Assembly: GCA_029547025.1 (NCBI GenBank)
Contig: JAKPQA010000194.1
Location: forward strand, 1 to 58,596
Direction: 5' to 3'
DNA: 58,596 nt
Source: Armatimonadota bacterium
Lineage (GTDB): Bacteria > Armatimonadota > Zipacnadia > UBA1398 > JAKPQA01
In this document: positions 22,784 to 44,600 of the stretch, piece after piece
Layout of the letters: every line of letters begins with the position of its first letter
How positions within the stretch are numbered: position 1 is the first letter of the stretch
Notes under the pieces: generated by a model
The model's database searches: none
Told to the model about the DNA's origin: nothing
Seen by the model: only the letters and a program-made list of their open reading frames with translations
Position numbers and translations under genes: made by a program

Positions 22784-23233
22784 TCACGAGACCACCGAGA
22801 ACCCGCCGTTCTCGCCCGGGGGCTCCGGGCCCTCAAGTGCCTGCCGATTGCGGTCGGCGGTCTCCTCGCTCACCGCGCGGTCCCACGCTTCTCGCAGTGT
22901 GCGCACCAGGTCGACCACTTCGTCGACGGGCTCGGCCGACTTGCGGAAGTTCGCGTCGACGAGCTGCATGAACATGAACTCGTAGATCGCCAGGAGATTC
23001 CGCGCAATCTCACCGCCCTGATCCAGATCGAGTGAGGCCATCAGCTCCGACAGGACATTCTGGGCTTTGATGAGAGCGAAGTGTGCCTCCTTGGGCTTCC
23101 GTTCCGCGAGCTCGGTCCTGGCCTGCTCGAGGAAACGGAGCAGTCCATCGTAAAGCAACAGAATGAGCCGGCCGCGCGACGCGGTTTCCACGGCGGTTCG
23201 CCGGTAGTTCTGGTAGGCCTTCGGTACACTCAT
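22784..23233 (-). CDS. fliS: Flagellar export chaperone FliS
   Basis: A FliS-type chaperone, 149 residues, which binds the flagellin C-terminus and prevents its polymerisation before export. The N-terminus SVPKAYQNYRRTAVETAS and LILLLYDGLLRFLEQA are clear FliS signatures. The last 25 residues (DRNRQALEGPEPPGENGGFS...) form an extra Gly/Pro-rich tail. Start ATG 23233 has GAGG 4 bases upstream; GTG 23242 is possible. It follows fliD after 64 bases on the same strand. Its clients would be the three unusually large flagellins encoded divergently. Confidence 0.93.
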   Translation of the reverse strand: MSVPKAYQNYRRTAVETASRGRLILLLYDGLLRFLEQARTELAERKPKEAHFALIKAQNVLSELMASLDLDQGGEIARNLLAIYEFMFMQLVDANFRKSAEPVDEVVDLVRTLREAWDRAVSEETADRNRQALEGPEPPGENGGFSVVS

Positions 23234-23297
23234 CAACCTCACCCGTCACATGCGTTGTCACGAGCCCGGCCCCATGCCAGAGCCCGGCTCACCGTGG

Positions 23298-26200: not shown

Positions 26201-28964
26201 CCGCCGCCAGGTCACCGACGCCCGTCACTTGGTCGCTGACCACGCCGAGAAGAGTGCCGTCGACATAAGCACGGATGTTCTTCCCCTCGACCTCGACGCG
26301 GTACGTGTGCTGGGTGGAGATGTCGAACCCAGTGGGGATCGCGAGTGTGCCCAGCAGTGTGTCGCCGCCGCCGGTGTTGTAGTAGATGTGCACACCTTCA
26401 CCGAGGGCGTGGCTCGCGTCCGCAAAGTCCACCCGGTAGCTGTTCCCGGTGGCACTGTCGTAGCGCACCTCGGCCGTCACCGCGTGGTTGATGGTGGTGG
26501 CGACCCGGGCGTTGAACTCGATGGCGTAGTCGGTGAGCGAGGCGTCGCCGAAGATGGCCCGGTCCGTATCGGCGCCGGCGGCAGCGGCGGCCTTGTAGAG
26601 TTGCTGAGAGCTCACCGAGTACTGGGTCTCATCGCCGGAGCTGAAGGTGATGGCCCCGCCGGCGGTCGGGTCGCCGTCGGCGAAGTCGGCGCTGAGAAGG
26701 TAGATCTCGGTGCCCACGATCTGGCTGCCGGTGCTGGCCGAGGTGACCCGAGCATTGCCTGAGGACGGCAAGATCGTCGACTGACCCCGGGTGAGTCCGA
26801 ACAGCTCGCCGGCGATGGTGCCGACATAGTCACGATCGGCCACCGAGAAGTTCATTCCCACCGAGGTTGCCGCCAGCTCCACGGCCCCGTTGGCGGTCAG
26901 CGCGGCCCGTACGCCCGTGACCTGTGCGTTCACCGCGTCGATGAACTGTCCGACCGTCGGCGGGGTGCTGGTGAACTGGAGCGTGGTGCTTGTCCCGTCC
27001 GCCAGCGTAATGGTGAACCAGTCGGTGTCGGTGATGCCGCCTCCGAACCCGGCCCCCAGTATGTCCGACCGCGTCAGCCCGGTCACGGCGCTGGTGATGG
27101 TGGCCACCGAGGACCGGATGCCGGTGAACCCCAGGACATTGCCGACGACCCCGTCATCGTAGTAGCCGGTGTCGTAGAGGGTCACGTTGCCGTTGTTGTC
27201 CTCGGCCTCGATGACCAGATGCCCATCATCGAGGTAGGCGTTGACGGGAGCGCCCGAGTCCTCGATGGCGGCGATGAGGTCGTTGACGGTGCTGGCCGTT
27301 GTCAAGCCGGCGATGCCGTAGGAGACGTCATCGACCCAGAGCCCGAGTGTGTTGGTTCGCGCGTCCGTGGTGATGCCCAGTGCACCCAGGGTGGTCGTGC
27401 CGGTCAGACCACCCACCGCCCCCACGATCTTGCCGCGCTTGCCGGCCGCCGCCGCGGACACAATGGGCGCCGTGGCTCCGCCGCGAGGGCTGTCCGCGGT
27501 GGACTGCGCGGCGGTGATGCCCAGCGCGCAGGTCGCGACACCGTTGGTGTAGTTGGCGTCGGACACCGTGAAGTTGCGGCCGCCATCGTTGGCGGTCAGC
27601 AGGAGCCGTCCCGTGACGATTTGGGCGGTCACGTTGGACTGGCCGGCGTTGATCGCGTCGACCAGGTCCTGCAGCGAACTCGACGTGTTCAGTCCGGACA
27701 CCGTGAAGGAACTCCCGCCCTCGACCGTGATGGTCAAGCCGTTGGCGGTGCCGACACCCAGAGACCGGAGTGTGGTGGACGCCGTCACGCCGGCGACCCC
27801 TCCGAGGATCCGTGCACCGGATGCGGCCGCGGTCACCAGGGCGTTCCCTGCCCCCCGGGCTTGCGTACTCTGGCGTCCCGATAGTCCGAACACCTTGGAC
27901 GCGATGTCGTCCGAGTAGTTGTCGTCGGCCAGGGTGAAGCCCACCCCGACCAGATCGGACCGCAGAGCCAGACGCCCGTCGGCAGTGAGCTCGGCCGAGA
28001 CGCCAGGCGCGTCGGCCTCGATGGCGGCCATCAGCGTGGCGATGGTGGTGCTGGCGTTGAAGGGGCCCCCGGTGGAGAGCGACATCCGCTGCCCGCCGAT
28101 GATGATGCCGAACTGGTCGAAGGTGCTTACCCCAATCTCGCCCAGGGTCGTGCTAGCTGTAAGGCCCTGGACTCCACCGACCACCTCGGCCACCGAGGCC
28201 GTCTCGGCCGAGAAGCCGAGGACCTTGGCCAGAATCCCGCTCGTGTAGTTGGTGTCGGATACGCTGAAGTCGCAGTCGCCTTGGGCGGCCGTGAGAACCA
28301 ATCGCCCGCTGACCAACTCGGCCCGAACCAATGGAACGCCCGTGTTGATCAGGTTGATGAGCTCGTTGACTGTGGTGGTGGACTTCACCGAAGTGAGCCG
28401 CCCCGTAACGCCCTGTAGGCTGAAGCGGAGCCCGTTGAGTACCGTGGCACCCAGGTCGGCCATGGTCTCGTCGCCGGTCAAGTCGGTGACGCGTCCCACG
28501 ATGCGCCCACCCCGCCCGCTGGTGAACGTGAGCGAGTGAGTCCCCTCGGTGGTGCCCGTGGCGGTTCCCCCCGCCTGGGCGAGTCCGGCCGTCCCCGTTA
28601 CATCGGTGCGGCTGTAGGTGGTGACGACCTCGCTCTCGGCCCGAGCGGCTTCGGCCACCTGACTGATCTTTACGATATGGGTTCCCCGGGCGGCAGCCGC
28701 CGTTGCGGTCGCGCGGAGAACGGCCTCGTCGGATGAGGTGACGATCTTCGTTTTGAACGTCGACTCCAGGCGCAGGGCCAGGGCGACTTGCTGAAGCTCG
28801 TATAACTTGCTGTTGACGTCGCGGAATGCTTCTTGCTCGAACAACAGCTCATCGCGCTGGTCGTAGAGCTTGTCGACGCGGTCCTGCTCGGTCTGCAGCA
28901 GCGCCTTGATCAGGCTTGCGGTGTCGATGCCCGAGACCAGGCCGTCGATGCGGGTGGAGGACAT
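23298..28964 (-). CDS. fliD: Giant flagellar cap protein FliD (hook-associated protein 2)
   Basis: FliD, the filament cap that directs flagellin folding and insertion. It is 1,888 residues; usual FliD is about 450-700. The N-terminus STRIDGLVSGIDTASLIKAL and the C-terminal coiled coil (SITAYEARLKAREEALNRQ...SMLSQLQSQ) are canonical. Between them: five IN-like repeats of 110-130 residues (about 150-743), a lectin-like jelly-roll insert (745-940), a sixth repeat (944-1058), a beta-rich segment, two FlgIN motifs (about 1255-1302 and 1372-1422) and the FliD C domain from about 1470. ATG 28964 begins the conserved N-terminus; the SD is weak. A sigma-28-type promoter lies about 50 bases upstream. 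Confidence 0.93.
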   Translation of the reverse strand: MSSTRIDGLVSGIDTASLIKALLQTEQDRVDKLYDQRDELLFEQEAFRDVNSKLYELQQVALALRLESTFKTKIVTSSDEAVLRATATAAAARGTHIVKISQVAEAARAESEVVTTYSRTDVTGTAGLAQAGGTATGTTEGTHSLTFTSGRGGRIVGRVTDLTGDETMADLGATVLNGLRFSLQGVTGRLTSVKSTTTVNELINLINTGVPLVRAELVSGRLVLTAAQGDCDFSVSDTNYTSGILAKVLGFSAETASVAEVVGGVQGLTASTTLGEIGVSTFDQFGIIIGGQRMSLSTGGPFNASTTIATLMAAIEADAPGVSAELTADGRLALRSDLVGVGFTLADDNYSDDIASKVFGLSGRQSTQARGAGNALVTAAASGARILGGVAGVTASTTLRSLGVGTANGLTITVEGGSSFTVSGLNTSSSLQDLVDAINAGQSNVTAQIVTGRLLLTANDGGRNFTVSDANYTNGVATCALGITAAQSTADSPRGGATAPIVSAAAAGKRGKIVGAVGGLTGTTTLGALGITTDARTNTLGLWVDDVSYGIAGLTTASTVNDLIAAIEDSGAPVNAYLDDGHLVIEAEDNNGNVTLYDTGYYDDGVVGNVLGFTGIRSSVATITSAVTGLTRSDILGAGFGGGITDTDWFTITLADGTSTTLQFTSTPPTVGQFIDAVNAQVTGVRAALTANGAVELAATSVGMNFSVADRDYVGTIAGELFGLTRGQSTILPSSGNARVTSASTGSQIVGTEIYLLSADFADGDPTAGGAITFSSGDETQYSVSSQQLYKAAAAAGADTDRAIFGDASLTDYAIEFNARVATTINHAVTAEVRYDSATGNSYRVDFADASHALGEGVHIYYNTGGGDTLLGTLAIPTGFDISTQHTYRVEVEGKNIRAYVDGTLLGVVSDQVTGVGDLAAGQATVRTDDDGEAVFWDNIKLTPLSTANGVGDLLNTSLASLGVTTANSLMTNLENVVTDVATPATLQELLDNLEAVDGMKAALVGGRLQVYAEDPRKDFGLGEAGGLTTGTITKVLFGLNAAQFTQSQPSGTAVVTAASTDEYTVADTVIPLHGGSPSFHTATGAEGTGLDYLFTGGILYGTGINRSFVNGEESLYTSAEISAGVDTAARVDGGYNVGSSGTSLVTEPSSTLVARSIFPDAKAGRYTIEYNYDGAPSAWHYRILNADGEVQGNGVLGSSTTPATFASYIDSDLAGSTFTHTYPGAGPPASGQTFEFVLKLDTSASLADAGFATPATTATNGVFTINGVAIQISDYTTETVESILAKINGSGAGVVARYDSRDDRFIVASTTIGSSGTVLLGSNTDSSNFLQIAKLTTTTGGTAVAGVDNNNVSLTTQLGTASTNLTTPVTSGTFTINGVTLYVDASKDTLQDVIDRINGSGAHVKASYDSSTDRFVLQSDMDDESTTTNTTRIRVGAAGDSSNILQALHIGTASQQQTTRYVGEAGTDAKFTFDGTTYTRVSNTVTNLVEGLTLTLLAASDKTLTINVEVDTDRGMNALADFVAKYNEIVDLLNPAKLTDDQKKYLTPLTDEDRANMTYTEIETYTTLYEKYRRQELIRTDSALRRIMLALRRAVTSSVSGLPESMNGLIDLGIDTYLAPGKVVTDGTLVYDSTDKDEILKKLGDIGDLEEMLRTREDAILQLFASEEYTGSGTSVLATYLVDRDSGLMVPADGQALSFRVGDGINQSSSITLQAGRTYTQAQILELLDRAGLNVGDGDDFGDRVRVTASFDSQGRLLLRCTGSGDSRYQVVLRDDSRGTNTLATVFGIDISSDGKGLSRALTDLLSTALKSDGVLGYRVKTDGTIEKDIDRVEDSITAYEARLKAREEALNRQFTAMESMLSQLQSQGDYVLSTLSSASKQSSGSS
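25790..28515 (-). repeat. Tandem protein repeats in FliD (six IN-like units)
   Basis: Coding repeats of about 330-390 bases with the pattern (V/L)xGVxGLTxxTTLxxLGV, then DLIxAIN, then VxAxLxxGRLxLTAxD, then NFTVxDxNYxxG and a final xLGxxxxQS. Approximate units: 28185-28515, 27815-28185, 27425-27815, 27090-27425, 26735-27090 and 25790-26135. The last unit is separated from the others by the jelly-roll insert at about 26135-26735. Confidence 0.75.
26135..26735 (-). other. Predicted lectin/LamG-like jelly-roll domain inside FliD
   Basis: About 195 residues inserted between repeats 5 and 6 of FliD. The pattern DYAIEFNARVATTINHAVTA, then NSYRVDFADASHALGEGVHI, then HTYRVEVEGKNIRAYVDGTL and finally EAVFWDNIKL is that of concanavalin-like/LamG or DUF1080-type jelly-rolls (VxFRxxxxxNxYxV, HxxxVxVxGxxIxxYVDGxL, G-FDNIxV). 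Such folds commonly bind carbohydrate. The assignment is from pattern only. Confidence 0.55.
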
Positions 28965-29011
28965 AGCAGGACCAACTCCGATGGCGGCATTCGGCCATGC
29001 GCCAGTAAGGC

Positions 29012-29039
29012 TTATCGGCAACCAGGGTCCGGAGCTTGA
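29012..29039 (-). promoter_or_regulatory. Sigma-28 (FliA)-type promoter for fliD-fliS
   Basis: On the minus strand a perfect -10 GCCGATAA (plus coordinates 29012-29019) is preceded, 16 bases upstream, by TCAA (29036-29039), against the consensus TAAA-N15/16-GCCGATAA. Transcription would start about 40 bases before the fliD ATG. Confidence 0.65.
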
Positions 29040-29642
29040 CTGGAGAGGATCCGGCACCGGGCCTGGGCTGGCAGCCAAGCCGAGGGCGCTGGGTGGACCT
29101 GTTGCATCTCGTTCAGGCCCGGTAACCGGAAGTTATCGCCGATGGCCCTAAAGTCCGGAGCCCATTCGGCCAACAACCAAAGCGGAGTATCTGGCACTCA
29201 GTCCAGAATCCGTGTCGTGGGAGGTGCTGCTCCCGCCGTTCCGGACTCACGGAGGGGCCCGGAGTGTAGACGAGGTATCTCGCGGCAACTGCCTGCGGCT
29301 AGGCCCCGACGGGGTCGGGCACCCTTACAGGGATGGAGGGGTGCCCGAGCCCGGGGTCCTGAGCCCGGGGCCCGTTGAGGCCCGATCGGACAGTGGCGTT
29401 GCCGTCCTCTCTCTCCGCGGATCGTTGCCGCGATCTCGTGGAGAGCTCTCCTCTGGGATGCGGTGCGCTCCCTCACCCGTGGTATCGGCAGTGCGGGCGA
29501 AGCCCTTGACCCATTCGGCGTATTCCCCTGCAGGACGCGACACGGATGACAGGAGGTGTGTGAGACACGACCCGGACTAGGCGCTTTGGGGGGCGCCCGG
29601 GGCCGGGTGCCGCGCCCCGATGTCTCAGGGGGCGTGCCAACG

Positions 29643-29692: not shown

Positions 29693-32600
29693 ATGGGTAT
29701 CAGAATCAACAATAACCTCGCGGCCCTGACGGCGGACCGGTATCTTGAGATGAACCGGGCCAGCGTCGAGAAGTCCATCGAGAAACTCTCATCGGGTCTG
29801 CGGATCAACCGCGCCAGCGATGACGCCGCCGGCCTCACGATCAGTGAGAAGTTGCGCGCACAGGTCAATGGCCTCAACCGCGCGTCACTCAACGCTCAGG
29901 ACGGGATCTCGCTGCTGAACACGGCAGAGGGCGCACTCTCCGAGGTGCACTCGATGCTCCAGCGCATGCGCGAGCTGGCTGTCCAGGCCGCGAACGACAC
30001 GCTGACCCAGAACGATCGCATCGAGATCCAAAAAGAGATCGACCAGCTGAAGAACGAGATCAACCGCACGGCGAGCACGACCGAGTTCAACACGAAGAAG
30101 CTGCTGGATGGGTCGGCCACAGCGCTGTGGAGCACCGACACGCCGTCGGATCTGCAGGCGATCATCCGTGACGTGGTTGCCGAGGGCAACTACAAGATCA
30201 CCAAGCAGATGCAGCCCGGTGTTGCGCAGGTTCTGAAGACTGATGTCTTCAACCTGGTGGCCAACAGCAAGAACCCCAGCGGCACACGGGGTCTTGCGAG
30301 CGACTTCGCGACCAACGACAGCGTGTTCACCGGAGTGGGGCAGCAGTTCCGTTCGCAGGACCTGACGGACTTCCAGAACTTCGAGTTCTCGCAGAACGTC
30401 GGCGCGGGGACGAACCTACAGCGCGACTTCCGGCTGGAGGTCACTCGGCTGACGGCCGACAACCAGGACCAGTTCGCCGTGGTGGCGCATCAGTTTGGCA
30501 CGGCGGGCGGCAAGGGCGGCTTCGCCATCACGAACAACGCCACGGCCGCGCTGGGTGACTCGGGCTACTACGAAGTCGAAGTTACCACGGTTCTGTCGAA
30601 CAACGGCGTCATCAACTCGGCCGGCATGGGCGCGTCGGACCTGTACCAGCTGACGGTCCGGCACCTCAATAGCGCTGGCACCGTGGTGGAGACCAAGTCG
30701 TTCAACATCACCCACTCGCAGGCTGCCGCGGGGACCGACATCCTGGGCACCGGCTATGCGGCCATGGTGACGGGTGGCGCCACGGCGATCCAGATGGGGA
30801 GCGACGGCGCGCAGTGGGCGGTGGGCGACAAGTTCCTGCTGACCCTGAATGCGGCGGAGGACACCCGGGCGGGCTCGAACGTCTATGTCCAGCAGCTCCA
30901 GCAGGACATGGGCGACAACGGGTTCCAGGTCGACACCACCGGCGCGGGCGTGGCCAACGACACGGTGGAGGACCGCGTGGGCCTCTACACGAGCCTGGGG
31001 CAGAACACGCCGGCCATCGACGGCGCGACCTATGGCGCCACCCTGATCTACTACGATAGCGCGGGGAACCGCCAGGTGGGCTCGGGCAACGTCCGCTACG
31101 GCGCCAATGGGTGGAACGTGGATCCAGCGGGTGGCCATGCGGACTTCTACATGACGAGCACCACCCTGGCCGAGCGCACGACCCAGCTCAGTAACATCGA
31201 CAAGTTCGCCGGTCTGTTTGATCTTGGCGCTCAGACCCTGACCATCTACAACGCATCGGGCGAGAGTGCCAACGTGGTTCTGAACGGCAGCGACACGCTC
31301 CAGGGCGCGGCGGAGAAGATCCGCGACGCCATCATCAAGCCCGTGGCCCAGGGCGGCCTGGGAATGGGCGTGGATGGTGACCTTAGCGCCAATGGCGTCG
31401 ATGGCAATGTGGCCGTGTTCGTCTCCGACGCGGTCGAGAACAGCGATGAAGCCGTGGCGGGCACTATCGTGGTCCGCTCGACGGTGGCGGGCAGCCAGGG
31501 TCGCCTCGCGTTCTCTGGCGACCAGAAGCTGCTGGATGCCCTGAGCATCGCGCAGATCCGGGACCCCAACGACCCGCTGGAGGTCACGGTGACCGATGCC
31601 CACACGGGCGAGATCATCGGCAAGACGATCGTGGATGACAACATGGTTCGTAACATCATCCAGGGCGTCGACCTGAAGATTGACAGCCGGGTGGACACGG
31701 TGGTGCGCTACGTCCCGGCCGGTGTCTCCCTGGTCACGGGCGACATCCTCGAGGGTGGATCCGCCGGCGCGACGGCCAGTGCGACGACGGACATCCTGGC
31801 GGGCGCCGACACGTTCGTGCAGGGTAACTTCACCGCCTTCCAGGGCGTCGAGCCCGACTCGGGCCCGGCGGGCGGCGCGAATGTCCGGGCCGACTACGAG
31901 TTGCGGACGCTGACCGCGGCCGACCAGTTCTCGGTGGCGGACTTCCGCTTCATGGCGGAGGCGGGCGCCGACAAGACCGGCTTCGCGCTGTCGGCACCAA
32001 CGATCTCGGCCAACACCGCCGCCGGCTACTTCGAGCTCGAGGTTCTTGGCATCGACTCGGACGCCGACGGCGTGCTCGAGACCACGGCAGGTACGGGCGG
32101 CACGTTGACCAACGCTGATGCCAACGGATCGGGAGGCATCCAGCTCGCGCTGCGCAAGTACGACAGCGCGGGCACGCTGCTGGAGGAAGCCACCGTGACG
32201 TTGGGCGATGACACGGCCAACGGCACGGCGGTCGACAACGTCGCGCTGAACCTGTTCGAGACTGCCATCGGTGGTGTTGCCAACAGCGGTCTGAGCGCGG
32301 CCAATGCCGTGGCGGCGGCCGACACGGCGAACATCACTCTCGGCAACGGCGCGACGTACTATGTGGGGGACAAGATCACGTTCGCCATCGCGAACGGCAG
32401 CGGGACGAACATGGCGGTCCTTCACAACGACAAGACCGACGCCGGCTTCGCCAACGTCACCGCCTACGGCGACGACACGAACTACCACGCGAACATCGCC
32501 GGTCTGGGCGCGAACACGACCAGCGCGGGGATTCGCGTCGGCCTGGCCACCCAGCTCGGCGCGTACTCGACTCTGGCGGGGTCGACGGTGGATGCAACCA

Positions 32601-33178
32601 TCGGCTACTACGATTCGTCGGGCAACTTCGTGGTCGGTGGCGGATCGGTGACGCTGGGCCAGACGGGCATGACGGTGCAGTCCGGCACGGTGAGGTTCTC
32701 GCTGACCCAGGAGACCTCGACCGGGCCCGGGTTCGTCTTCGAGTCGGCGCCGGGTGCGGCCGTCGAGTACCTGCACCTGGTGGACAACCGGATCACGCTC
32801 CAGATCGGGGCGAATGCCGGCCAGACGTTGACCACGAGCATCGCGGCCATGGATACCACGGCCCTGGGCGTGAACGACATGCTGGTCATCAGCCGTGACC
32901 TGGCGGCCGAAGCGATCAGCAAGGCCGACACGGCCATCAACCTGGTGTCCAGCGAGCGGGCCAAGCTCGGAGCCTACGTCAACCGGCTCGAGCACACCAT
33001 GAACGTGTTGGACATCCAGTCGGAGAACCTGCTGGCTGCCGAGAGCCGGATCCGTGACCTCGACATGGCGAAAGAGACCATCGCCTTCACGCGGAACCAG
33101 ATTCTCATGCAGTCGGGCATCGCTCTCCTGGCTCAGGCCAATGCTCTGCCGCAGAACGTGCTGTCCCTGTTGCGGTAG
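29693..33178 (+). CDS. fliC: Giant flagellin 1
   Basis: Filament subunit of 1,161 residues; common flagellins are about 270-550. The N-terminal D0/D1 region ([20 protein letters not shown], then [20 protein letters not shown]) and the C-terminal D1/D0 region ([20 protein letters not shown]...[16 protein letters not shown]) are canonical. The roughly 850-residue middle holds two related modules (about 204-488 and 698-1006) that each contain GYYEVEV/GYFELEV, VGDKF/VGDKI and YYDSxGN-VxGxG segments. They are separated by a FlgIN-like stretch ([20 protein letters not shown]). No cysteine was seen. It is divergent from fliD and followed by a hairpin and flaG. Confidence 0.95.
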
Positions 33179-33189
33179 TCGTGCGGCGG

Positions 33190-33233
33190 GCGGCGGCCTG
33201 CTCTGGGCCTGCTGGGCCCAAGTGGGCCGCCGC
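33190..33233 (+). terminator. Large hairpin after flagellin 1
   Basis: Arms GCGGCGGCC (33190-33198) and GGCCGCCGC (33225-33233) pair perfectly, and the intervening bases contain a second small stem (TGGGCC/GGCCCA). It begins 12 bases after the stop codon and is followed by TTCGCTCG. It may terminate or stabilise the abundant flagellin mRNA. Confidence 0.55.
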
Positions 33234-33339
33234 CGCTTCGCTCGTCGGCACGTAACGGAGCACTGGTGGCTCGGGATGCTGTGAACCGATGGTGCTCCGG
33301 AGCGGGCGGCGGGCGGTGCGGCCACAGGAGGTGGTGGGT

Positions 33340-33720
33340 ATGGCTGCGGGCGATCTGGGGCGGGCTGCGGCCGTCGACGTGGCTCAGCGAGCGTCGGCAA
33401 CGCAAGCCGCGGAGTGGGCAGACCGTGCGACCCACCCGGAGAGCGCTGGTGATGCCGCACAGGAGAAGCCCGAGGCGGATCCGGAGGACTTCTGGAGCGA
33501 TCGGGAAGTCCGGCGGGCTGCCGACGATTTCAACCGGGCGTTCACCCTGTTCGACATCCAGGCCAAGTTCTCGGTCCATGAGGCCAGTGGCTCCATCATC
33601 GTGGACGTGATTGACACGCGGACCGGTGACGTGATCCGCGAGATCCCGCCGCGGGAGCTTCTCGACCGGTGGGCACAGATGATGGATATCATGGGGCTCT
33701 TCGTCGACAGACGGGCCTAG
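33340..33720 (+). CDS. flaG: FlaG family flagellar protein
   Basis: A 126-residue FlaG protein. The C-terminal half has the family pattern NRAFTLFDIQAKFSVHEASG, then VDVIDTRTGDVIREIPPREL. The N-terminal 50 residues are Ala/Glu-rich and probably disordered. FlaG proteins are linked to filament length in other bacteria. ATG 33340 has AGGAGGT about 8 bases upstream; the longer frame from 33289 is not needed. It is placed between flagellin 1 and the methyltransferase genes, all on the plus strand. Confidence 0.88.
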   Translation: MAAGDLGRAAAVDVAQRASATQAAEWADRATHPESAGDAAQEKPEADPEDFWSDREVRRAADDFNRAFTLFDIQAKFSVHEASGSIIVDVIDTRTGDVIREIPPRELLDRWAQMMDIMGLFVDRRA

Positions 33721-33741
33721 CTCGGTGCCCCGAGAAGGCGG

Positions 33742-33778
33742 ACGGGCGCTCCTTCGCGTGAGGCGGAGGGGCGCCCGT
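33742..33778 (+). terminator. Hairpin terminator after flaG
   Basis: Arms ACGGGCGC (33742-33749) and GCGCCCGT (33771-33778) pair, extended by TCC/GGA with bulges, followed by TGCTGTCTGTC. It probably separates flaG from the methyltransferase cassette. Confidence 0.5.
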
Positions 33779-33861
33779 TGCTGTCTGTCGCGCTCTCTCG
33801 CTAAGGCCCCGGCGGTCTGGGACCGAAGACCCAACCGGAGTTGCCGGAGCGGAGGGATCGC

Positions 33862-35187
33862 ATGTCGGCGACAGCGGAGGCGGCGGAGGCCGCCGCCGTG
33901 ACCGAGCCTATCGCGTCCCAAGACGTGGGCGTCCTGGACGAGGTCACCCGGCGCGTTCAGGAGCAGTACCGCCAGTACCCATATCCCCGGTTTGCCGAGG
34001 AGAGCATCGTCGATGGACGGCGCCTGGTCTCGGTGGACTATCTGCGCTACATGCAGATCGCGGCGTGGCCGAAGCGCCGCAACCTGTCGGGTTTGCGCGT
34101 GCTGGACGCGGGATGCGGCACAGGGCAAGTGCTGACGCAGATAGCCGAGTGTCACCCCGAGGTCCAACTACTGGGCATTGACCTGAGCGACACGTCGCTT
34201 GGAATCGCGCAGCGCCAGCTCGATCGTGTCGGGGCGACCAATGTCGAGCTCCGGGTGTTCCAGATCTACGATCTCGAGCGTCTCGGCGAGACGTTCGATG
34301 TGGTGATCTGCGGCGGGGTTCTGCACCATCTCTCGGACCCCGTGCGGGGCCTGAAGTGCTTGCGCTCGGTGCTCAAAGACGATGGTGTCCTCTCGATCAT
34401 GGTGTACGGCCGCTATGGCCGCACGGGCGTGTACGTGCTGCAGGACCTGATCCGGATGGTCTCCGGCGGGCGCTCGCAGTCCGAACTGGCCCCCTGGACC
34501 CGGAAACTCGTTGGCGCCCTGCCGCCGGCACACGCCTTCCATCGGCGCAAGTTCGGCGACCTCGACATGGCGGGCGATTCCGGGCTGGTGGACCTGTTGC
34601 TGCACCCCCAGGACCGCAGCTACACGGTGCCCGAGATCTACGAGTGGCTGGAGCAGGCATCGCTGGAGCTGCTGCAGTGGTGTCCGCGTCGCCAGTATGA
34701 GCCAGCGTTGTACGTGCGCGACCATGACGTGCGCGACTCGCTGTCGGCGTTGAGCGAACGTGACCGGGCCATCGCGGCCGAGCTGCTGTCGTCCGATCAC
34801 GCCAAACACCACTTTCTGGCCTGCAAGCCCGGTTTCCGCGTGGAGCGGCCCTCGATCGACGACGCGGACTGGCTCTCGAGCCGGCCGGTCTCGAACCCAC
34901 ACTGGGCCCTCCACCAGGAAGGCGAACCGGGCCCCGACGGATCGGTGACCCGAGGCCGGCTTTCGGCGATCAACCTCGTCGCCGGCGTCGCCCTGCGTGT
35001 CGATCTGGCCGAAGAGGAAGCGCGGATACTTCGACTCTGCAACGGTGACCATACGGCCGGCGAGATCGCCGACAGCCGCGAACTCCGCCGCCGCTTCAGC
35101 CGCATCGGGTCCGAAGGCCGTCGACAGCTGCTGCGGCGGTTCCTCCGCCGCGCCATCGAACACGAGTTGGTGTACCTATGTCCGTGA
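33862..35187 (+). CDS. SAM-dependent methyltransferase 1 of a flagellar triplet
   Basis: A class I SAM methyltransferase of 441 residues. An N-terminal motif QYRQYPYPRF precedes the Rossmann domain; motif I is LDAGCGTGQVL (about residues 81-91), with GIDLS as the acidic strand and VVICGGVLHHLSDP as the post-motif. The C-terminal ~130 residues contain LLSSDHAKHHFLACKPGF and a helical end (ARILRLCNGDHTAGEIADS...FLRRAIEHELVYL) resembling a winged helix; both are shared with the two following genes. SD GGAGGG before ATG 33862. Its last 10 bases overlap gene 2. Placement between flagellin genes suggests flagellin modification; the target is inferred. Confidence 0.82.
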   Translation: MSATAEAAEAAAVTEPIASQDVGVLDEVTRRVQEQYRQYPYPRFAEESIVDGRRLVSVDYLRYMQIAAWPKRRNLSGLRVLDAGCGTGQVLTQIAECHPEVQLLGIDLSDTSLGIAQRQLDRVGATNVELRVFQIYDLERLGETFDVVICGGVLHHLSDPVRGLKCLRSVLKDDGVLSIMVYGRYGRTGVYVLQDLIRMVSGGRSQSELAPWTRKLVGALPPAHAFHRRKFGDLDMAGDSGLVDLLLHPQDRSYTVPEIYEWLEQASLELLQWCPRRQYEPALYVRDHDVRDSLSALSERDRAIAAELLSSDHAKHHFLACKPGFRVERPSIDDADWLSSRPVSNPHWALHQEGEPGPDGSVTRGRLSAINLVAGVALRVDLAEEEARILRLCNGDHTAGEIADSRELRRRFSRIGSEGRRQLLRRFLRRAIEHELVYLCP

Positions 35188-36494
35188 TCGCGGAGCTGGC
35201 CATGGATTCGCCCGTCGCCATCGGCGGTTCCCCGCCGCATTGGCTGCCGCTTGCTGCCGGCGACCGCCTGGGCGACCTTGCGCGTCACTATGACGAGTAC
35301 CCGCACCCTCCCTATGCCGACCACGCGCCGCACCGAGGCGTGCCGCCACGAGATCTGCTCGATCTGGCGCGGTATGTACTGTGGCCACGGCGCAAGGTGC
35401 TGGCCGACGCCCGAGTGCTGGATGCCGGCTGCGGCACGGGCGCGCAGCTCGCGGCCATGGGCATGCGTCACCCGGATGTGGAGCTCTGGGGCGTGGATGT
35501 GAGCGCACGGTCGCTCGACGACGCGGCCGACCGCGCCCGGCGCTGCAATGTCGGCTCGGTCCATCTCCGCCAGCTTCCCGTCGAGCGAGTGGGGGAGCTG
35601 GGGCTCGAGTTCGACCTCGTGGTACTCCAGGGCGTCCTGTCGGCGAGCTCGGACCCACGGGCCACACTCAGCGCCGCGGCCTCGGTGGTTCGTCCGGAGG
35701 GCGGGATACTGGTCTCTGTGGCGGCACCCTACGGCCGGCTCGGTGCCGAGGGCTTCCGCGAACTGGTCGACCTCGCCCGAGGCGGGCAGCCGCGCGCCGA
35801 GCGGCTGCGGTTCGCCCGGAAGCTCCGGGCCAGCCGAGAGTGGCACTCGAGACTGCTCGAGGCCGTGCTCGACTCGCGCGAGGAGGATGACGCGTCTCTG
35901 GCCGAACTGGCGGTGCTCGATCCCCCCTTGCGAGCGTACTCGGTGCCTGAGTTAACCGGTCTGCTGGCGTCGGCCGGCCTGCGGATCTGGCGCTTCCATC
36001 CGAGGACGCCTTACGAGCCCGAGCGCTACCTGCCGGCGCCCCACCATGGGTGCCTCCGCGCTGTGCCGGAAGTGCTTCGACCTGCGGTCGCCGAGCTACT
36101 CCATTCGGCGATGCACACCCACTGCTTCTTCGCAGTGCGGGAGGGCTTCGAACCCGAACGCGTGGACCTGGACGGTGAGGACTGGCTCGATCTACAGCCC
36201 ATTGCCAACGGGCTATGGGACTTCGCAGCCTCCGATGGGCCCGTGCCGGAGCAGGCTGGGCGCGCCGGAGTGGCAACTCGCGAGTTCTGCGGGCGGTGCG
36301 AGTGCATTGCGCTCACGCCGTGGCAGCGGATCGCTCTGGAGCTGTGTGAATCCGGCACGCGTGTGCGCGACATTCTGAGGTCCAGGCGGCTCCGGCAGGA
36401 GTTGGCGGGGCTCGGTCGGGGCGACTATTGCGAGGCGGTCCGGTCATTCCTGCGCCGCGCGGCGCACGACGAACTCGTCTACCTGGTTGGCTAG
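35178..36494 (+). CDS. SAM-dependent methyltransferase 2 of a flagellar triplet
   Basis: Paralog of the preceding gene, 438 residues. Same architecture: HYDEYPHPPYADH at the N-terminus, motif I LDAGCGTGAQL (about 81-91), GVDVSARSLDDA, then the shared C-terminal pieces LLHSAMHTHCFFAVREGFEP and LRRAAHDELVYLVG. The post-motif is VVLQGVLSASSDP, lacking the HH of gene 1. ATG 35178 lies inside the end of gene 1 (10-base overlap), implying translational coupling. The three genes may act on different residues or on different flagellins. Confidence 0.82.
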   Translation: MSVIAELAMDSPVAIGGSPPHWLPLAAGDRLGDLARHYDEYPHPPYADHAPHRGVPPRDLLDLARYVLWPRRKVLADARVLDAGCGTGAQLAAMGMRHPDVELWGVDVSARSLDDAADRARRCNVGSVHLRQLPVERVGELGLEFDLVVLQGVLSASSDPRATLSAAASVVRPEGGILVSVAAPYGRLGAEGFRELVDLARGGQPRAERLRFARKLRASREWHSRLLEAVLDSREEDDASLAELAVLDPPLRAYSVPELTGLLASAGLRIWRFHPRTPYEPERYLPAPHHGCLRAVPEVLRPAVAELLHSAMHTHCFFAVREGFEPERVDLDGEDWLDLQPIANGLWDFAASDGPVPEQAGRAGVATREFCGRCECIALTPWQRIALELCESGTRVRDILRSRRLRQELAGLGRGDYCEAVRSFLRRAAHDELVYLVG

Positions 36495-36519
36495 GCCAGA
36501 GGCAAGGGAGAACACAGAC

Positions 36520-37788
36520 ATGGCAGTGACGCCGGTGGTCAGCGCCCCTGGGGGCCTGAGCGACGCGGTCCTCGCCCAGTATGAGGCCTATCCGTGCCCG
36601 GGGCACCCACCCGGGACGGCGGAGCCAGAGGTGCCGGACTGGTTGGGCTATCTCCGTCCCCTGCTGTGGCCCCGTCGGCAGGATCTATCGGGGCTGAAGG
36701 TGTTGGACGCCGGTTGTGGGACCGGTGCGATGACCTCGGGGCTCGCCCGCTGCCATCCCGAAGTGAACGTACTGGCCATCGACATCAGTGCGCGGTCGCT
36801 CGAGGTGGCCGCCCGGCGCCTGGGCGGCTGCCAGGGCGGGAATGTGCGACTCCGTCAGCTTCCGATCGAGCGGGCGAACGAGCTCGATGAGCGCTTTGAC
36901 CTGATCGTGGTCTGGGATGTGCTGCACTGTGTTATCGACGCCCCGCGAGTCTTGCGGACACTGGGTGATCTCTTGACGCCCGATGGCGCGCTCATCGCGT
37001 CGGTGCGGGCCCCGCACGGGCGCGCGGGGGCGGTGGCGCTCCGGTCTCTCATGGAGGCACTGGGCCTGGGGCTCGAGTGCCCCGAGGCGATCCCGCGGGC
37101 GCGATCCATCATCGACAATCTCTCGGCCACTCACCTGTTCCAGCGGTCCGAATGGCAACAGGACCTGGCAGCCGGCGGGGACGCGGCGGTGGTGGATCTG
37201 CTGCTGCCGGCGCGTCAGCGGCTTTACAACGCGCTCGAGGTCTTCGAACTCGTGGCCGAGTCGGGGCTGGAGTTTCTGCGGTGGTTCTGCCCGAACATGT
37301 ACTGCCCACGCCGCTACCTGGCCGATGCCGACCTGCTGAGGCCGTTCGAGGCGCTGGGAAGCGCCGAGCAGGCCCGGGCGGCTGAACTGCTGCATTCGCG
37401 CATGCGCAACCATGTGTTCGTCGCAGTCCGGCCCGGGCATATGCCGGACTCGCCGCAGATCGATGGGGACAACTGGCTCGAGGCCATCGCGGTGCCCAGT
37501 CCGCTGTTTCGATGGCGGGACGCGCGGCAGGAGACCGGGCAGCACGGTGAGACCGTGTTCGCGGTCACCTCTGAGTGGGAGGGCACCCGGGCCACCGTCC
37601 GGCTGCAGAGCTGGGAGGCATTGATCGTCCACGTCTGCGCCACCGGACAGTGTCTACGGGACGTGTGCGAGCACCCGAAACTGGTCTCGGGGCTCGGGCC
37701 GCTGTCGGCCGCGCAGCGCGCGGAGCTGGTCCGCGGGTTTCTGCGACGGGCGATCGCGGACGACTACGTGCTCCTCGCATGGGCCTAG
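36520..37788 (+). CDS. SAM-dependent methyltransferase 3 of a flagellar triplet
   Basis: Third paralog, 422 residues. N-terminal QYEAYPCPGHPPG, motif I LDAGCGTGAMT (about 61-71), AIDISARSLEVAARRL, post-motif VVWDVLHCVIDAP, and the shared C-terminal LLHSRMRNHVFVAVRPGHMP and FLRRAIADDYVLLAWA. ATG 36520 has GGGAG 8 bases upstream; the frame from 36487 overlaps gene 2 but has no SD. It ends 117 bases before giant flagellin 2. Motif I is intact in all three copies, so none looks like a dead enzyme. Confidence 0.82.
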   Translation: MAVTPVVSAPGGLSDAVLAQYEAYPCPGHPPGTAEPEVPDWLGYLRPLLWPRRQDLSGLKVLDAGCGTGAMTSGLARCHPEVNVLAIDISARSLEVAARRLGGCQGGNVRLRQLPIERANELDERFDLIVVWDVLHCVIDAPRVLRTLGDLLTPDGALIASVRAPHGRAGAVALRSLMEALGLGLECPEAIPRARSIIDNLSATHLFQRSEWQQDLAAGGDAAVVDLLLPARQRLYNALEVFELVAESGLEFLRWFCPNMYCPRRYLADADLLRPFEALGSAEQARAAELLHSRMRNHVFVAVRPGHMPDSPQIDGDNWLEAIAVPSPLFRWRDARQETGQHGETVFAVTSEWEGTRATVRLQSWEALIVHVCATGQCLRDVCEHPKLVSGLGPLSAAQRAELVRGFLRRAIADDYVLLAWA

Positions 37789-37905: not shown

Positions 37906-40900
37906 ATGGGCGTGCGCATCTACAGCAACGTCTCGGCACTGACGGCGCTGCGCCACCTGGACCGGAGCACCGAACGGCTGTCGACATCGATCGAACGGCT
38001 TTCTTCCGGTCTGCGCATCAACCGCGCCGGGGATGACCCGGCAGGGTTGGCCATCAGCGAGAAGTTGCGGAACCAAGTCCTGGGCCTGCGGCGGGCCACG
38101 CTGAACGCTCAGGACGGCACCTCCCTCCTCCAGACGGCGGAGGGAGCCCTCTCAGAGGTCCACACGATCCTGCAGCGGATGCGGGAGCTGGCGGTTCAGG
38201 CGGCCAACGACACGCTGACCCAGGCCGACCGTATCGAGATCCAGCGCGAGATCGATCAGCTCAAAGAGGAAGTCAACCGCATCTCGGCCACGACCGAGTT
38301 TAACGAGAAGAACCTGCTCGACGGGTCGGCAACGGCTCTGGCCAGCTCGGATGATGCCAAGAACGTGCGGGTCGTCATCCGCGATGTGGTTCAGGAAGGC
38401 AACTACAAGATCACCAAGCAGAACAGCCCCGGCCATGCCCAGGTGCTTAAGAGTGCTACGTTCAACTTGGTGGCGAACTCGAAGAACCCCAACGGAACGC
38501 GCGGCAGGGCCACGGACTTCGGAACGAGCAGCATCTTCCAGGGCGTCGGGGAGAGTCTGAAGAGCGGTAACCTGACGGGGTTCACCAACCTCGAGTTCTC
38601 GTCGAGCATTGGCGGCACCAACAACCAGCTTCGAGACTTCCGGCTCAGCGTCATACCGGTCTCGGCGGCGAGTACGGACCAGGTGGCGATCGCCGATCAC
38701 TACTTCTCCGCCTCGGGCGGCAAGTCGGGTTTCCTGTTGACCAACAACAACACCGCGGGCCCGGGGGATTCGGGCTACTACGAAGTCGAGGTCACCTCGG
38801 TATACGGCAACGACGGTGTGATCGAGACGGCCCTGGGCAGTGAACGCTTGTATGAGCTAACCGTGCGCGAGATCGACGCCAAAGGCAGCGTGATCCGCTC
38901 GACGTCCGTGAACCTCTCACACACCCAGGCCTCAGCGGCCACCGACGTGCTGGGCACGGGTTACGCCGAGATGGTCACGGGAGGGGCTACCGCCATCACC
39001 ATGGGCGGAGACCAGGCCAAGTGGAGTGTGGGCGACAAGTTCATCGTCGTCATCAACGCCAACGAGGACTTCCCAGGCGTGGCCCACTACGTCCAGCAAC
39101 TCCACCAGGATACCGGGGATAACGGGTTCCAGGTGGACACGGTCGGCTCGGGCGTGCGCAACGATGCGGCGGAGGACCGCGTGGGTCTGTACACTAGCCT
39201 GGGGACGGATGTAACGGCCATCGACGGGTCGTCCTTCGCCACCTCGCTCCTGTACTACGACGCATCGGGGAACCGCCAGCTCGGCACGGGCACGGTGCAG
39301 TACGGCGAGAATGGCTACTCGGTCAACGCATCGGGTGGCTCGGTCGACTTCTACCTCGAAGAGACGACGCTGGCGGAGAGGACTACGCGTCTCGCCGACG
39401 TGGATGCCTTCGCGGGCCTGTTCTCGCAGGGCGGCCAGGTGCTCGACATCTACAACGGCCGGGGCGACCACACATCGCTGGTGCTCAATGCCAGCGACAC
39501 CATGGAGACCGTGGCGGCGAAGATCCGCGACGCGATCATCCGGTCGACGGTGCAGGGCGGCCTGGGCATGGGCGTCGATGGCAATCTGAGCCGGCTGACT
39601 GGCGTCGACGGCAACGTGTGTGTGTTCGTGAGTGAACCAGCGGAGAACACGGACGAAGCCGTGCCATCGACCTTCATCATCCGGTCGACGGTGCCGGGTG
39701 CCGAGGGGCGCCTCGTCTTCTCCGGGGCACAGCAGATCCTGGACGCTTTCAGCCTGGCCCAGATCACCGATCCGGATGACCCCATGCAGGTCACCGTGAC
39801 CGACGCCCACACCGGCGCACTGGTCGGAACCGCCACGGTGGATGACGGCGTGGTCCGCAACCTGATCCAGGGCGTCGACCTGTTCATCGATCAGCGGCTG
39901 GACACCCTGGTGCGCTTCGTGCCCGGAGGGGAGGTGCTGACGCCGGGGGACCTGATGGAGGGCGGTGCGGAGAATCCACCGGGAACGGCCAGCGACCCGC
40001 GGGACATCATCGCGGGCAACTCGACGTTCGCCGCCAACATGCTGCAGAACTTCAAGGGACTTGAGGCCGATCCGGGATCGGTGGGTTCGCCCGTCAACAA
40101 CATCGCCAACTTCGAGCTCCGGACCAACGACGCGACCAGCGACCAGTTCTGCGTGGCCGACTACCAGTTCGTGACAGCCGCGGCCAAGGCAGGCTTCACG
40201 CTCCCCACGGGCGCTGGTCTGAGTATCTCGGCCAATACCACTGCGGGCTACTACGAGCTCCAGGTTGTAGCCATCAACGGCGTGACCACGGCGGGCACGT
40301 CCTCGACGCTGACCGCTGTAGACGCGGCGGCCAACGGGATGGACCTCCGGCTCACCAAGTACGACCGGAACGGCACCATGCTCGAGCAGGCCACGGTGCG
40401 CGTCGGCAACACGGCAGCTGGCATCTCGGTAGCCAACGTGGCACGGGCCTACTTCGGAGAGACCTTCGCCGGCGGGACCGGACTGGCGAGCACCGGCATT
40501 GACGCGGCGGACTCAGCGAGCATCAACCTGGGACTGGGCACGACGACGTACGCGGTGGGTGACCGGATCACGTTCGCCGTTGCCGACACGGCCGGCCATG
40601 TGACGGCCAATCTGCGCAACGACACGAGCGACACCGGTTTCGCGGGACCCTATGGCCTGAATCAGGACGCGGGTGTGTCCACGCTGGCGCAGCAGAGCGC
40701 GGCGGTCCGGGTGGGACTGATCGAGGATCTGGGCGCCAACAACTTCAGCAACGTAGCCGGCCAGAAGGCCGATGTGACCCTGGGCTACTACGACGCCGGC
40801 GGGAATTTCACCGTGGGCGGCGGCTCCGTGATCCTGGGCCAGCCTGGCGACACCATCCAGGCGGGCACCCTGCGATTCACGACGACCGTCGAGTCGGCGG

Positions 40901-41358
40901 CAGGGCCGGGATTCGCCTTCGAGTCAGCCCCCGGCGCGTCCATCAGCTATGTGCACCTGGTGGACAACCGGATCTCACTCCAAGTGGGTGCGAACGAGGG
41001 CCAGACGATGACGGCGGCCATCAGTCAGCTTGACACCACGGCCCTGGGGCTGGACAGCGTGCTGGTCATCAGCCGCCAGTTCGCCCAGGAGGCCCTGGCC
41101 AAAGTGGATGCCGCGGTCAACATCGTGTCCTCGCAGCGGGCCAAACTGGGCGCACTGATCAATCGGCTCGAGGCCACCCGGAGCGTACTCCAGATCCAGG
41201 CCGAGAACCTGCTCAACTCCGAGAGCCGGATCCGCGACCTGGACATCGCCTCGGAGACGGTGGACTTCACGCGCGACCAGATCCTGTCACAAGCGGGCAC
41301 GGCGATGCTGGCTCAAGCCAATGCCATCCCGCAGTCAGTGCTGCAGCTGCTGCAGTAG
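37906..41358 (+). CDS. fliC: Giant flagellin 2
   Basis: Flagellin of 1,150 residues, close paralog of flagellin 3 and more distant from flagellin 1. Canonical ends: MGVRIYSNVSALTALRHL, then [18 protein letters not shown], and C-terminal [20 protein letters not shown]. Two related internal modules lie at about 204-485 and 697-996 with GYYEVEV/GYYELQV, VGDKF/VGDRI and YYDASGN/YYDAGGN landmarks. It contains at least two cysteines (in GNVCVFVSEP and DQFCVADYQF), unusual because most flagellins lack Cys. ATG 37906 has the SD AAGGAGG; the 12 codons of open frame before it are the leader hairpin, not protein. Confidence 0.95.
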   Translation: MGVRIYSNVSALTALRHLDRSTERLSTSIERLSSGLRINRAGDDPAGLAISEKLRNQVLGLRRATLNAQDGTSLLQTAEGALSEVHTILQRMRELAVQAANDTLTQADRIEIQREIDQLKEEVNRISATTEFNEKNLLDGSATALASSDDAKNVRVVIRDVVQEGNYKITKQNSPGHAQVLKSATFNLVANSKNPNGTRGRATDFGTSSIFQGVGESLKSGNLTGFTNLEFSSSIGGTNNQLRDFRLSVIPVSAASTDQVAIADHYFSASGGKSGFLLTNNNTAGPGDSGYYEVEVTSVYGNDGVIETALGSERLYELTVREIDAKGSVIRSTSVNLSHTQASAATDVLGTGYAEMVTGGATAITMGGDQAKWSVGDKFIVVINANEDFPGVAHYVQQLHQDTGDNGFQVDTVGSGVRNDAAEDRVGLYTSLGTDVTAIDGSSFATSLLYYDASGNRQLGTGTVQYGENGYSVNASGGSVDFYLEETTLAERTTRLADVDAFAGLFSQGGQVLDIYNGRGDHTSLVLNASDTMETVAAKIRDAIIRSTVQGGLGMGVDGNLSRLTGVDGNVCVFVSEPAENTDEAVPSTFIIRSTVPGAEGRLVFSGAQQILDAFSLAQITDPDDPMQVTVTDAHTGALVGTATVDDGVVRNLIQGVDLFIDQRLDTLVRFVPGGEVLTPGDLMEGGAENPPGTASDPRDIIAGNSTFAANMLQNFKGLEADPGSVGSPVNNIANFELRTNDATSDQFCVADYQFVTAAAKAGFTLPTGAGLSISANTTAGYYELQVVAINGVTTAGTSSTLTAVDAAANGMDLRLTKYDRNGTMLEQATVRVGNTAAGISVANVARAYFGETFAGGTGLASTGIDAADSASINLGLGTTTYAVGDRITFAVADTAGHVTANLRNDTSDTGFAGPYGLNQDAGVSTLAQQSAAVRVGLIEDLGANNFSNVAGQKADVTLGYYDAGGNFTVGGGSVILGQPGDTIQAGTLRFTTTVESAAGPGFAFESAPGASISYVHLVDNRISLQVGANEGQTMTAAISQLDTTALGLDSVLVISRQFAQEALAKVDAAVNIVSSQRAKLGALINRLEATRSVLQIQAENLLNSESRIRDLDIASETVDFTRDQILSQAGTAMLAQANAIPQSVLQLLQ

Positions 41359-41665: not shown

Positions 41666-44600
41666 ATGGGACTGCGTATCTACAACAACGTCACGGCGCT
41701 GACGGCGTTGCGGAATCTCGGTCGGTCCAGCGAACGGCTGGGCACATCGATCGAGCGTCTGTCCTCGGGACTGCGCATCAACACGGCGGGTGATGACCCG
41801 GCGGGGTTGGCCATCAGTGAGAAGTTGCACAACCAGGTGCTGGGGCTGCAACGGGCGACGCTCAACGCTCAGGACGGGGCATCGCTGCTACAGACGGCCG
41901 AAGGCGCGCTGTCCGAGGTGCATAGCATCCTGCAGCGGATGCGGCAATTGGCTGTTCAGGCGGCCAACGACACGCTAACGCAGCAGGACCGGGTCGAGAT
42001 CCAGAGGGAAATCGACCAGCTCAATGAGGAGATCAACCGGATCTCGAGGACCACCGAGTTCAACACGAAGTCGCTGCTGGATGGATCCGCCACGGCGCTG
42101 GCCAGTACGGACAGCCCCAACGAGATGCAGGTGATCATCCGGGACGTGGTCCAGGAGGGCAACTACCAGATCACCAAGCAGAACGTACCCGGCCAGGCTC
42201 AGGTCCTCAAGAGCGACATCTTCAACCTGGTTGCGACGAGCAAGAATCCCAGTGGCACTCGCGGGCTGGCCAGAGACTGGGGGGCATCCACACTCTTCCA
42301 GGGCGTGGGCGAAGCGCTCTCCGCGAGTGACCTGACCTCGTGGCGCAACTTCGAGTTCTCTCATAACATCGGCGGGGAGAACAACCTCGTCCGGGACTTC
42401 CGGATCGAGGTGAAGCAAGTCGCGGGCGCGGCCGACAGCCAGGTGGCCATTGTGGACCACTACTTCAAGACCCAGGGTGGCAAGTCGGGCTTCGCACTGG
42501 CCACCACGGGAACTCTGGGAGCGGGCGATTCGGGGTACTACGAGATCGAAGTTGCCTCGGTGTACAGCAACGATGGAGTGATCGACACAAGCCTGGGAAG
42601 CGCCAACCTGTACGAGCTCACGGCCCGCGAGCTCGACGCCAAGGGCGGTGTGATCCGAACGGTGCACTTCGACGTCACACACGCTCAGGCCTCGACCGCT
42701 CAGGATTTGCTCGGGACGAACATGGCCGGCCTCATCACGGGAGGCGTCACATCCATCACCATGGGGACGGACCAGTGCAAGTGGGCCGTCGGTGACAAGT
42801 TCCTGGTCGTCGTGAACTCAGCAGCTGACTTCGCGGGCACCCCGTACGTGCAGCAGGTCAAGCAGGACATGGCCGACAACGGGTTCCAGGTGGACACCAC
42901 GGGCTCCGGAATCCGCAACGACGCCGCCGAGGATCGAGTGGGGCTTTACACGAGCCTGGGCACCGACCTTAACGCCATCGATGGCTCAACGTACAGCACG
43001 TCGATGGCGTACTACGACTCCTCAGGCAACCGCCAGATGGGTACGGGCGACATCCGCTATGGTGAGAGCGGGTACACGGTCCGCAGCGCTGGGGGATCGG
43101 TGGACTTCTACCTCGAGGAATCCACGCTAGCGGAACGCACGACGACGCTGTCGCAGGTCGACAAGTTCCAGGACGCGTTCATCCATGGTGGCCAGGTTGT
43201 GACGATCTACAATGGCAAGGGGGCCTCGGCATCGTTCACACTCAACGGCTCGGATACGCTCGAGAAGGTGGCCGAGAAGATACGCGATGCCATCATCAAA
43301 CCGATCTCCCAAGGCGGTCTGGGGATGGGCATCGACGGGGACCTGAGCCGGAGCACAGGCGTCGACGGCAATGTGTGCGTCTTCGTCAGCGAGCCCAAGG
43401 AGGCAACCGACGAGGCTCTCCCGGCCACCTTCGTGATCCGGTCCACGGTACCGGGCAAGGGGGGCCGGCTGGTCTTCTCGGCGGACCAGGGCGTGCTGGA
43501 CGCTTTCAGTCTCGCGCAGATCCAGGACCCTGAGGACCCGATGCAGGTTACGGTTACCGATGCACACACCGGGGCTCTAGTCGGGACGACGACCGTCGAC
43601 GATGGCGTCGTTCGGAACCTCATCAAGGGCGTGGACCTGGTCATCGACCAGCGAACGGACAGCCTGGTGCGTTTCGTGCCCGGCGGGATCACCCTCAAGC
43701 CGGGAGATGTCACCGAAGGTGGCAGCGCACTGGCGGGCACGGCTAGCGCGGCCGTCGATATCGTGGCCGGATCGGCAACCTTCGCTCGGAACATGTTCCA
43801 GAACTTCAAAGGTCTGGATGCCGATGCGGGCCCCGTGGGCTCGCCACTGAACTCGGTCGCGAACTTCGAGCTGGCAACCAATGGGGCTGCGGGCGACCAG
43901 TTCTCGGTGGCGGACTTCCTGTTCATGGCGAGTCCCCCCTCGGCCAAGACGGGCCTGGCTCTCGGAGTGCCGGCCATATCGGCGAACACCACGGCGGGGT
44001 ACTACACCCTGGAGGTCGTGGCCATCAACGGCGTCACCGCGGCGGGGACCAGCGATACCCTGACCAACATCGACACCGCCGCGAGTGGCATGGACGTCCG
44101 ACTCAGCAAGTATGACCGGAATGGCACGCTGCTCGAGCAGGCGACGGTGAATGTGGGCGACACGTCAGCCGGCATCGCGGTCACCAATACGCCCCTGGAG
44201 TTGTTCCGCAGGAACTTTGCGGGGGGGACCGGCCTGGTCACAGAGGGCATCGCCAACGCCGACTCAGCCACCGTGAATCTGGGCGTGGGGGCGGACCGGT
44301 ACTACGTCGGCGACCGGATTGCCTTCGCCATCGCCAACGCGAGCGGCAGCACGACGGCCATGCTGCGGAATGACACCACCGACACGGGGTTCTTCGGCAC
44401 CAGCGGCCTCACGTACGACGGCGGCGTGACGGGCGCGGTCTCGGGGGCTCCGGTACGAACCGGACTGGTGGAGGTACTGGGGGCCGCCGACTTCTCCGCG
44501 GCGGCGGGCACCAAGGCCGACGTGACCGTGGGCTACTATGACTCGGCGGGCAACTTCCTGGTGGGAGGGGGATCGGTCCTGCTGGGGCAGCCTGGCGACA

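Follow-up and report, generated by a model that had tools for sequence, protein, structure and literature searches.

What do three successive methyltransferase genes do in the middle of a set of very large flagellin genes? The question is raised by a 58,596-nucleotide contig of an Armatimonadota bacterium (JAKPQA010000194.1; the whole stretch is the window analyzed here), in which three tandem class I methyltransferase genes, called MT1, MT2 and MT3 below, occupy positions 33862-37788 of the forward strand, downstream of flaG and upstream of the second of three flagellin genes. The feature is real, and computation establishes the type of enzyme encoded, that of Mycobacterium tuberculosis Rv2067c and its relatives; that these enzymes methylate flagellin is likely, as suggested by the position of their genes.

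Three overlapping genes with a shared architecture

MT1, 33862..35187, forward strand: 441 amino acids (aa); Pfam Methyltransf_12, E 2e-21; GVLHHL retained.
MT2, 35178..36494, forward strand: 438 aa; GVLSAS in place of GVLHHL.
MT3, 36487..37788, forward strand: 432-433 aa; DVLHCV in place of GVLHHL.

The initial annotation had described three adjacent, partly overlapping genes with an intact motif I between flaG and flagellin 2, and the open reading frames, the overlaps (10 bp between MT1 and MT2, 8 bp between MT2 and MT3) and the motif (VLDAGCGTG in all three copies) hold on re-examination. The start ATG of MT1 is preceded by GGAGGGA, and an in-frame TTG lies at 33841; MT3 begins at a TTG, with an in-frame ATG further downstream as an alternative. 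GC content at the third codon position of 0.81-0.83, together with the homologs described below, supports their status as coding genes, and GC content by codon position fits coding sequence. The three proteins share 33-37% pairwise identity over nearly their full length. Each shows a class I S-adenosylmethionine (SAM, AdoMet) fold with a GxGxG motif I and Pfam methyltransferase domains at E 1e-15 to 2e-21 (Methyltransf_12, Methyltransf_31 and Methyltransf_25 above the cut-off), and each carries the N-terminal motif Y-x-x-Y-P-x-P, as YRQYPYP in MT1, YDEYPHP in MT2 and YEAYPCP in MT3. In a tree of the family, MT2 and MT3 are sisters (support 97/96), implying at least one local duplication, while the placement of MT1 is unresolved. 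A search of the 6.3-Mb genome with a family profile found these three as its only full-length members.

Sequence and fold point to Rv2067c and the PKMTs

Compared with proteins of solved structure, a family profile built from MT1-MT3 and six relatives matched Rv2067c (8hkr) best, at E 9e-73 against 1.5e-29 for the next protein; the alignment covers positions 10-414 of the 418 in the profile and 12-403 of 8hkr. Using phmmer, 8hkr also came first for each copy (E 5e-39 for MT1, 4.5e-26 for MT2 and 1e-25 for MT3), and each copy singly also matches the Rickettsia protein lysine methyltransferase (PKMT) PKMT2. Structure prediction and comparison, which the initial annotation had suggested, placed the MT1 and MT2 models nearest Rv2067c and PKMT1/2. 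The AlphaFold2 model of MT1 (pLDDT 83.6, pTM 0.84) had only Rv2067c and PKMT1/2 among its top 10 Foldseek matches in the PDB, at E 8e-27 to 1.4e-15, followed by 5e-11; the model of MT2 (pLDDT 72.4, pTM 0.75, with low confidence in regions 213-249 and 350-363) had only 8hkr and PKMT1/2, at E 8e-23 to 1e-14, followed by 3e-10. For both models, the next fold thus trails these matches about 10,000-fold or more in E-value. TM-scores to the target were 0.66-0.80 (Foldseek), and the homology is full-length, extending through the dimerization insertions and the C-terminal domain. Against the outer-membrane PKMT structures, the TM-scores of the two models, normalized by target, were 0.48-0.55.

The second Tyr of YxxYPxP, present in MT1-MT3, aligns with position 23 of the 8hkr chain. 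With three additional residues in the chain, an offset that we infer from its length (410 versus 407 aa), this position would be Tyr20. The SAM-facing Tyr20 of Rv2067c has been described as highly conserved (PMC10739865), and the second Tyr of the motif most likely matches it. The initial annotation had regarded the motif as unusual; it is indeed found in all three copies, but it recurs across a widespread family and is most likely an active-site signature of the Rv2067c type, not a peculiarity of this locus. In addition, Asp107 is invariant in two alignments (A2 and A4) and aligns with the AdoMet-contacting Asp74 of RtPKMT2 (5doo).

MT1-MT3 resemble Rv2067c in near-full-length homology, best fold match, YP motif, a similar C-terminal alpha+beta domain and size (407 aa versus 432-441 aa), but share only about 25% identity with it, and Rv2067c is reportedly a secreted protein that methylates histone H3 of the host. 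It is encoded singly, in a bacterium that has no flagella. The Rv2067c dimer is built from a catalytic domain, helical insertions that serve dimerization, and a C-terminal domain; it methylates H3K79 only when H3 is free and extended, and has a trough similar to the one in PKMT1/2, enzymes that methylate numerous OmpB lysines (PMC10739865). A further relative, Acinetobacter KmtA, methylates more than 130 lysines on AtaA, a giant surface fiber protein (PMC11784438). PKMT1 and PKMT2 (5dnk, 5do0, 5doo, 5dpl) and KmtA share with MT1-MT3 the catalytic and dimerization fold and the Asp equivalent to RtPKMT2 Asp74, and modify giant surface proteins at many lysines. Unlike MT1-MT3, they are about 100 residues longer, with differing middle and C-terminal domains, and their substrates are outer-membrane autotransporters; the long middle and C-terminal domain of the outer-membrane PKMTs (516-553 aa) is absent from MT1-MT3. 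Taken together, sequence and models make it very highly probable that MT1-MT3 belong to the Rv2067c/PKMT structural type of protein methyltransferase.

Other assignments fared less well. Homology to FliB was rejected, in agreement with the initial annotation: no match to CxxCxxCC appears in the Pfam results for MT1-MT3 down to hits of E 0.1, and they lack the Cys-rich character of that enzyme. The genome contains two weak CxxCxxCC matches, both on other contigs. A PqqD/RRE-like C-terminal domain is no more than hinted at: one relative gave a weak hit (E 0.002, below the cut-off), MT1-MT3 gave none, and there was no PDB hit. 8HKR is part of an RRE reference set (PMC12710340). FlmG-like targeting by TPR domains was not seen; TPR-fused relatives occur in Azospirillum and on Caulobacterales plasmids.

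The genes sit within a filament cluster

The gene order is fliS-fliD / fla1-flaG-MT1-MT2-MT3-fla2-fla3, with fliD and fliS divergent from the flagellin 1 side:

FliS flagellin chaperone, 22784..23242, reverse strand: Pfam FliS, E 9e-39.
FliD filament cap, 23298..29078, reverse strand: 1926 aa; FliD_C E 4e-32, FliD_N E 1e-20, five matches to Flagellin_IN.
Flagellin 1, 29693..33178, forward strand: 1161 aa; Flagellin_N E 2e-44, Flagellin_C E 2e-27; 27 Lys; candidate substrate.
FlaG, 33289..33720, forward strand: Pfam FlaG, E 9e-22; upstream neighbor of MT1.
Hairpin 3' of flaG, 33721..33790, forward strand: -48.3 kcal/mol, z -4.5, equaled in 0 of 200 shuffles; no U-tract.
Flagellin 2, 37906..41358, forward strand: 1150 aa; Flagellin_N E 2e-44; 20 Lys; candidate substrate.
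Flagellin 3, 41666..45106, forward strand: 1146 aa; Flagellin_N E 4.5e-44; 27 Lys; candidate substrate.

Within this 22-kb cluster, MT1-MT3 are the sole non-filament genes. Pairwise identity among the three flagellins is 58-71%, and the length of FliD with its five Flagellin_IN matches suggests that the filament cap has been enlarged alongside them. No glycosyltransferase, nonulosonate or sugar-biosynthesis gene was found across 22784-45106, so that the locus has the layout of a flagellin methylation island, with methyltransferase genes and no glycan genes, and not that of a glycosylation island. A fourth, divergent flagellin lies on a separate contig of the same genome (at about 9700-10190 of locus L016, contig C120), in an open frame of 841 aa.

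The hairpin after flaG, although not called by the terminator scan, is a probable transcript end, and the gap between MT3 and flagellin 2 has no unusually stable fold (z +1.9). Given a stable hairpin after flaG and none that is strong before flagellin 2, MT1-MT3 probably form a transcript of their own, which possibly runs on into flagellin 2. Consensus searches found no sigma-28 promoter before MT1, flaG, fla2 or fla3, and a sigma-70 promoter scan was empty. Stable hairpins without a U-tract also follow flagellin 1 (33179-33250, z -4.8) and flagellin 3 (45107-45200, z -3.6); these and the flaG hairpin are likely to be transcript ends missed by the consensus scan in a GC-rich genome. Separately, a 24-nucleotide palindrome, CCCGCGAGCAnGGAnGCGnGCGGG, occurs at 37857-37880 and again at 41618-41641, just 5' of the flagellin 2 and flagellin 3 ribosome-binding sites, respectively, a duplication for which 0 are expected by chance; it is a possible shared control element of the 5' untranslated regions.

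A candidate flagellin methylation cassette

Since the structural type acts on protein lysines and the genes are placed among giant flagellins, lysine methylation of flagellin is the simplest reading of the locus. On balance, we favor a filament-dedicated cassette that methylates cytosolic flagellin, most likely on lysines, with the substrate suggested by gene position. MT1-MT3 would be cytosolic, SAM-dependent seven-beta-strand protein methyltransferases, each most likely having its catalytic domain, which bears the YPxP active-site motif, at the N-terminus, together with helical dimerization insertions and a C-terminal alpha+beta domain. Flagellin would be bound in extended form in the enzyme trough before export, and the three giant proteins would receive methyl groups on their lysine side chains, so that the surface of the filament would become less reactive and more hydrophobic. 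As products of local duplication, MT2 and MT3 may differ in their preference for sites or flagellins, and MT2 may be weakened or serve as a partner. It is a more tentative proposal that the three paralogs constitute a FliB-independent system of flagellin lysine methylation, in which sites or degrees of methylation are shared out among the three flagellins.

Several observations weigh against the cassette. Flagellins were sought beside 13 relatives from several phyla scoring above 150 bits and 19 from 392 Planctomycetota genomes, in flanks that extended 10 kb at most and less where some contigs ended, and flagellin was present in the flanks of 0 of these 32, although the flagellin profile picks up a divergent flagellin from Aminicenantes and, within the phylum, every one of 20 flagellin loci on which it was tried. 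The link to flagellin is thus observed in this genome only. Flagellin itself is present in 194 of 291 genomes of the phylum, a full-length family member in only two: this genome and G002, which belongs to the same order and carries its copy on a 3.4-kb contig without flagellin; a weak methyltransferase match was found in 1 of 20 flagellin neighborhoods of the phylum. We therefore reject both flagellin linkage as a family-wide property and a general association of flagella with this enzyme in the phylum. Within the proteins, the AdoMet-contacting His118 of RtPKMT2 is replaced by Gly in MT1, Gln in MT2 and Trp in MT3 (Rv2067c likewise lacks it, with Thr at the aligned position), and the two His of GVLHHL are absent from MT2, which may be catalytically altered. 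The flagellins offer few lysines, 20-27 in about 1150 residues, and Lys is less conserved among them than Arg, Asp or Gly; no special conservation of lysines was found, the 12 invariant Lys columns being no more than overall conservation predicts.

The initial annotation had held that homologs lying mostly away from flagellin genes would contradict a filament role, and that is where they lie, the Aminicenantes copies being in nonribosomal peptide synthetase (NRPS) clusters. The Rv2067c-type family is substrate-diverse and its flagellin link is local. A family-wide flagellin function is excluded; a locus-specific one is still plausible, because known members have different substrates.

Which substrate, then, best accounts for the locus? 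MT1-MT3 could be protein methyltransferases acting outside the filament, with their position incidental or a matter of mere co-regulation. The contexts of relatives, which include NRPS clusters, aromatic amino acid genes, sulfatases and varied Planctomycetota loci, speak for this, as do their flagellin-free flanks and the strong hairpin separating flaG from MT1; we nevertheless consider it unlikely, given that three copies follow one another from flaG to a flagellin gene, that all other genes of the cluster are filament genes, and that MT3 and fla2 have no strong hairpin separating them. Less likely again is that the enzymes methylate a decoration of flagellin, whether a glycan or a precursor of small-molecule type. 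Fold and sequence favor protein methyltransferases first, the cluster has no glycosyltransferase or nonulosonate gene (a DegT aminotransferase and a GHMP kinase lie 14-17 kb past FliS), and no MptE/MAF-like family match was found in the genome with a model that matches only in archaeal controls. Methyltransferases are, on the other hand, common in flagellin glycosylation islands, as in Enterobacteriaceae (PMC4875605) and with Shewanella sfmD (PMC3765264), the flagellin sugar of Clostridioides difficile bears a phosphorylated N-methyl-L-threonine (PMC4441256), and some relatives lie within NRPS clusters.

Finally, flagellin might be methylated on residues other than lysine, such as Arg, Gln or Asn, or at its N-terminus. 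The scarcity and unexceptional conservation of flagellin lysines would suit this, and the family profiles leave the acceptor residue unfixed, but all characterized nearest relatives are lysine methyltransferases (PMC10739865, PMC11784438), and we regard it as very improbable. Of the dedicated filament modification put forward in the initial annotation, the protein target gains from an enzyme type that methylates lysines of large surface proteins, while the glycan target it also allowed has become less likely in a cluster without glycan genes.

Other features of the relatives

Two Aminicenantes NRPS-type clusters have a full-length relative followed by a truncated second relative without the usual motif I (L027:2734-4843 and L028:9992-12097), and also contain a phosphopantetheinyl transferase, a thioesterase and an NRPS. 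Arylsulfatase-like genes lie near a relative in two unrelated genomes (L185/G566 and L213/G876). The relative in G876 (L208 / L213, about 9600-10400) has one in-frame TAG, and is either a broken gene or possibly one with a recoded TAG. In G1045 (L250:9146-18876), a relative is directly followed by an open frame of 2776 codons that weakly matches the methyltransferase profile.

Comparison with known flagellin modification systems

The Salmonella enzyme FliB would share its job with the proposed cassette, namely cytosolic methylation of flagellin lysines before export, but is an unrelated [4Fe-4S] enzyme with CX4CX3CC. FliB-dependent methylation renders Salmonella filaments more hydrophobic and improves adhesion, with swimming unaffected (PMC7181671). 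Methyltransferase-only flagellin islands have been described in Enterobacteriaceae as FMI (fliB) and FMI2 (smtA) (PMC4875605). They too have a methyltransferase gene within a filament locus free of glycan genes, but one gene and not three, and SmtA is likened here by locus layout alone. Shewanella oneidensis SfmD (sfmABCDE) is a SAM methyltransferase of about 395 aa in a flagellin modification cluster, in a species whose flagellins carry methyl-lysines; unlike MT1-MT3 it lies beside NeuB and other glycan genes, and its authors tie it to the glycan, a comparison made from its description only. Islands of this kind are already known, and what is novel here is that the paralogs number three and belong to another type, one defined by structure. 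Among the papers available to the search, we found none that places an Rv2067c-type enzyme with flagellins.

If the cassette does methylate flagellin, flagellin methylation would have arisen at least twice in evolution, from enzymes with unrelated chemistry: the [4Fe-4S] enzyme FliB and a Rossmann-fold PKMT. The idea would also apply to Shewanella and Aeromonas, whose flagellins carry methyl-lysines and in which the responsible enzyme is unsettled (PMC3765264, PMC9290775). Flagellin would, in addition, provide a natural bacterial substrate for a widespread family best known for Rv2067c, which has been described as a histone-methylating virulence factor.

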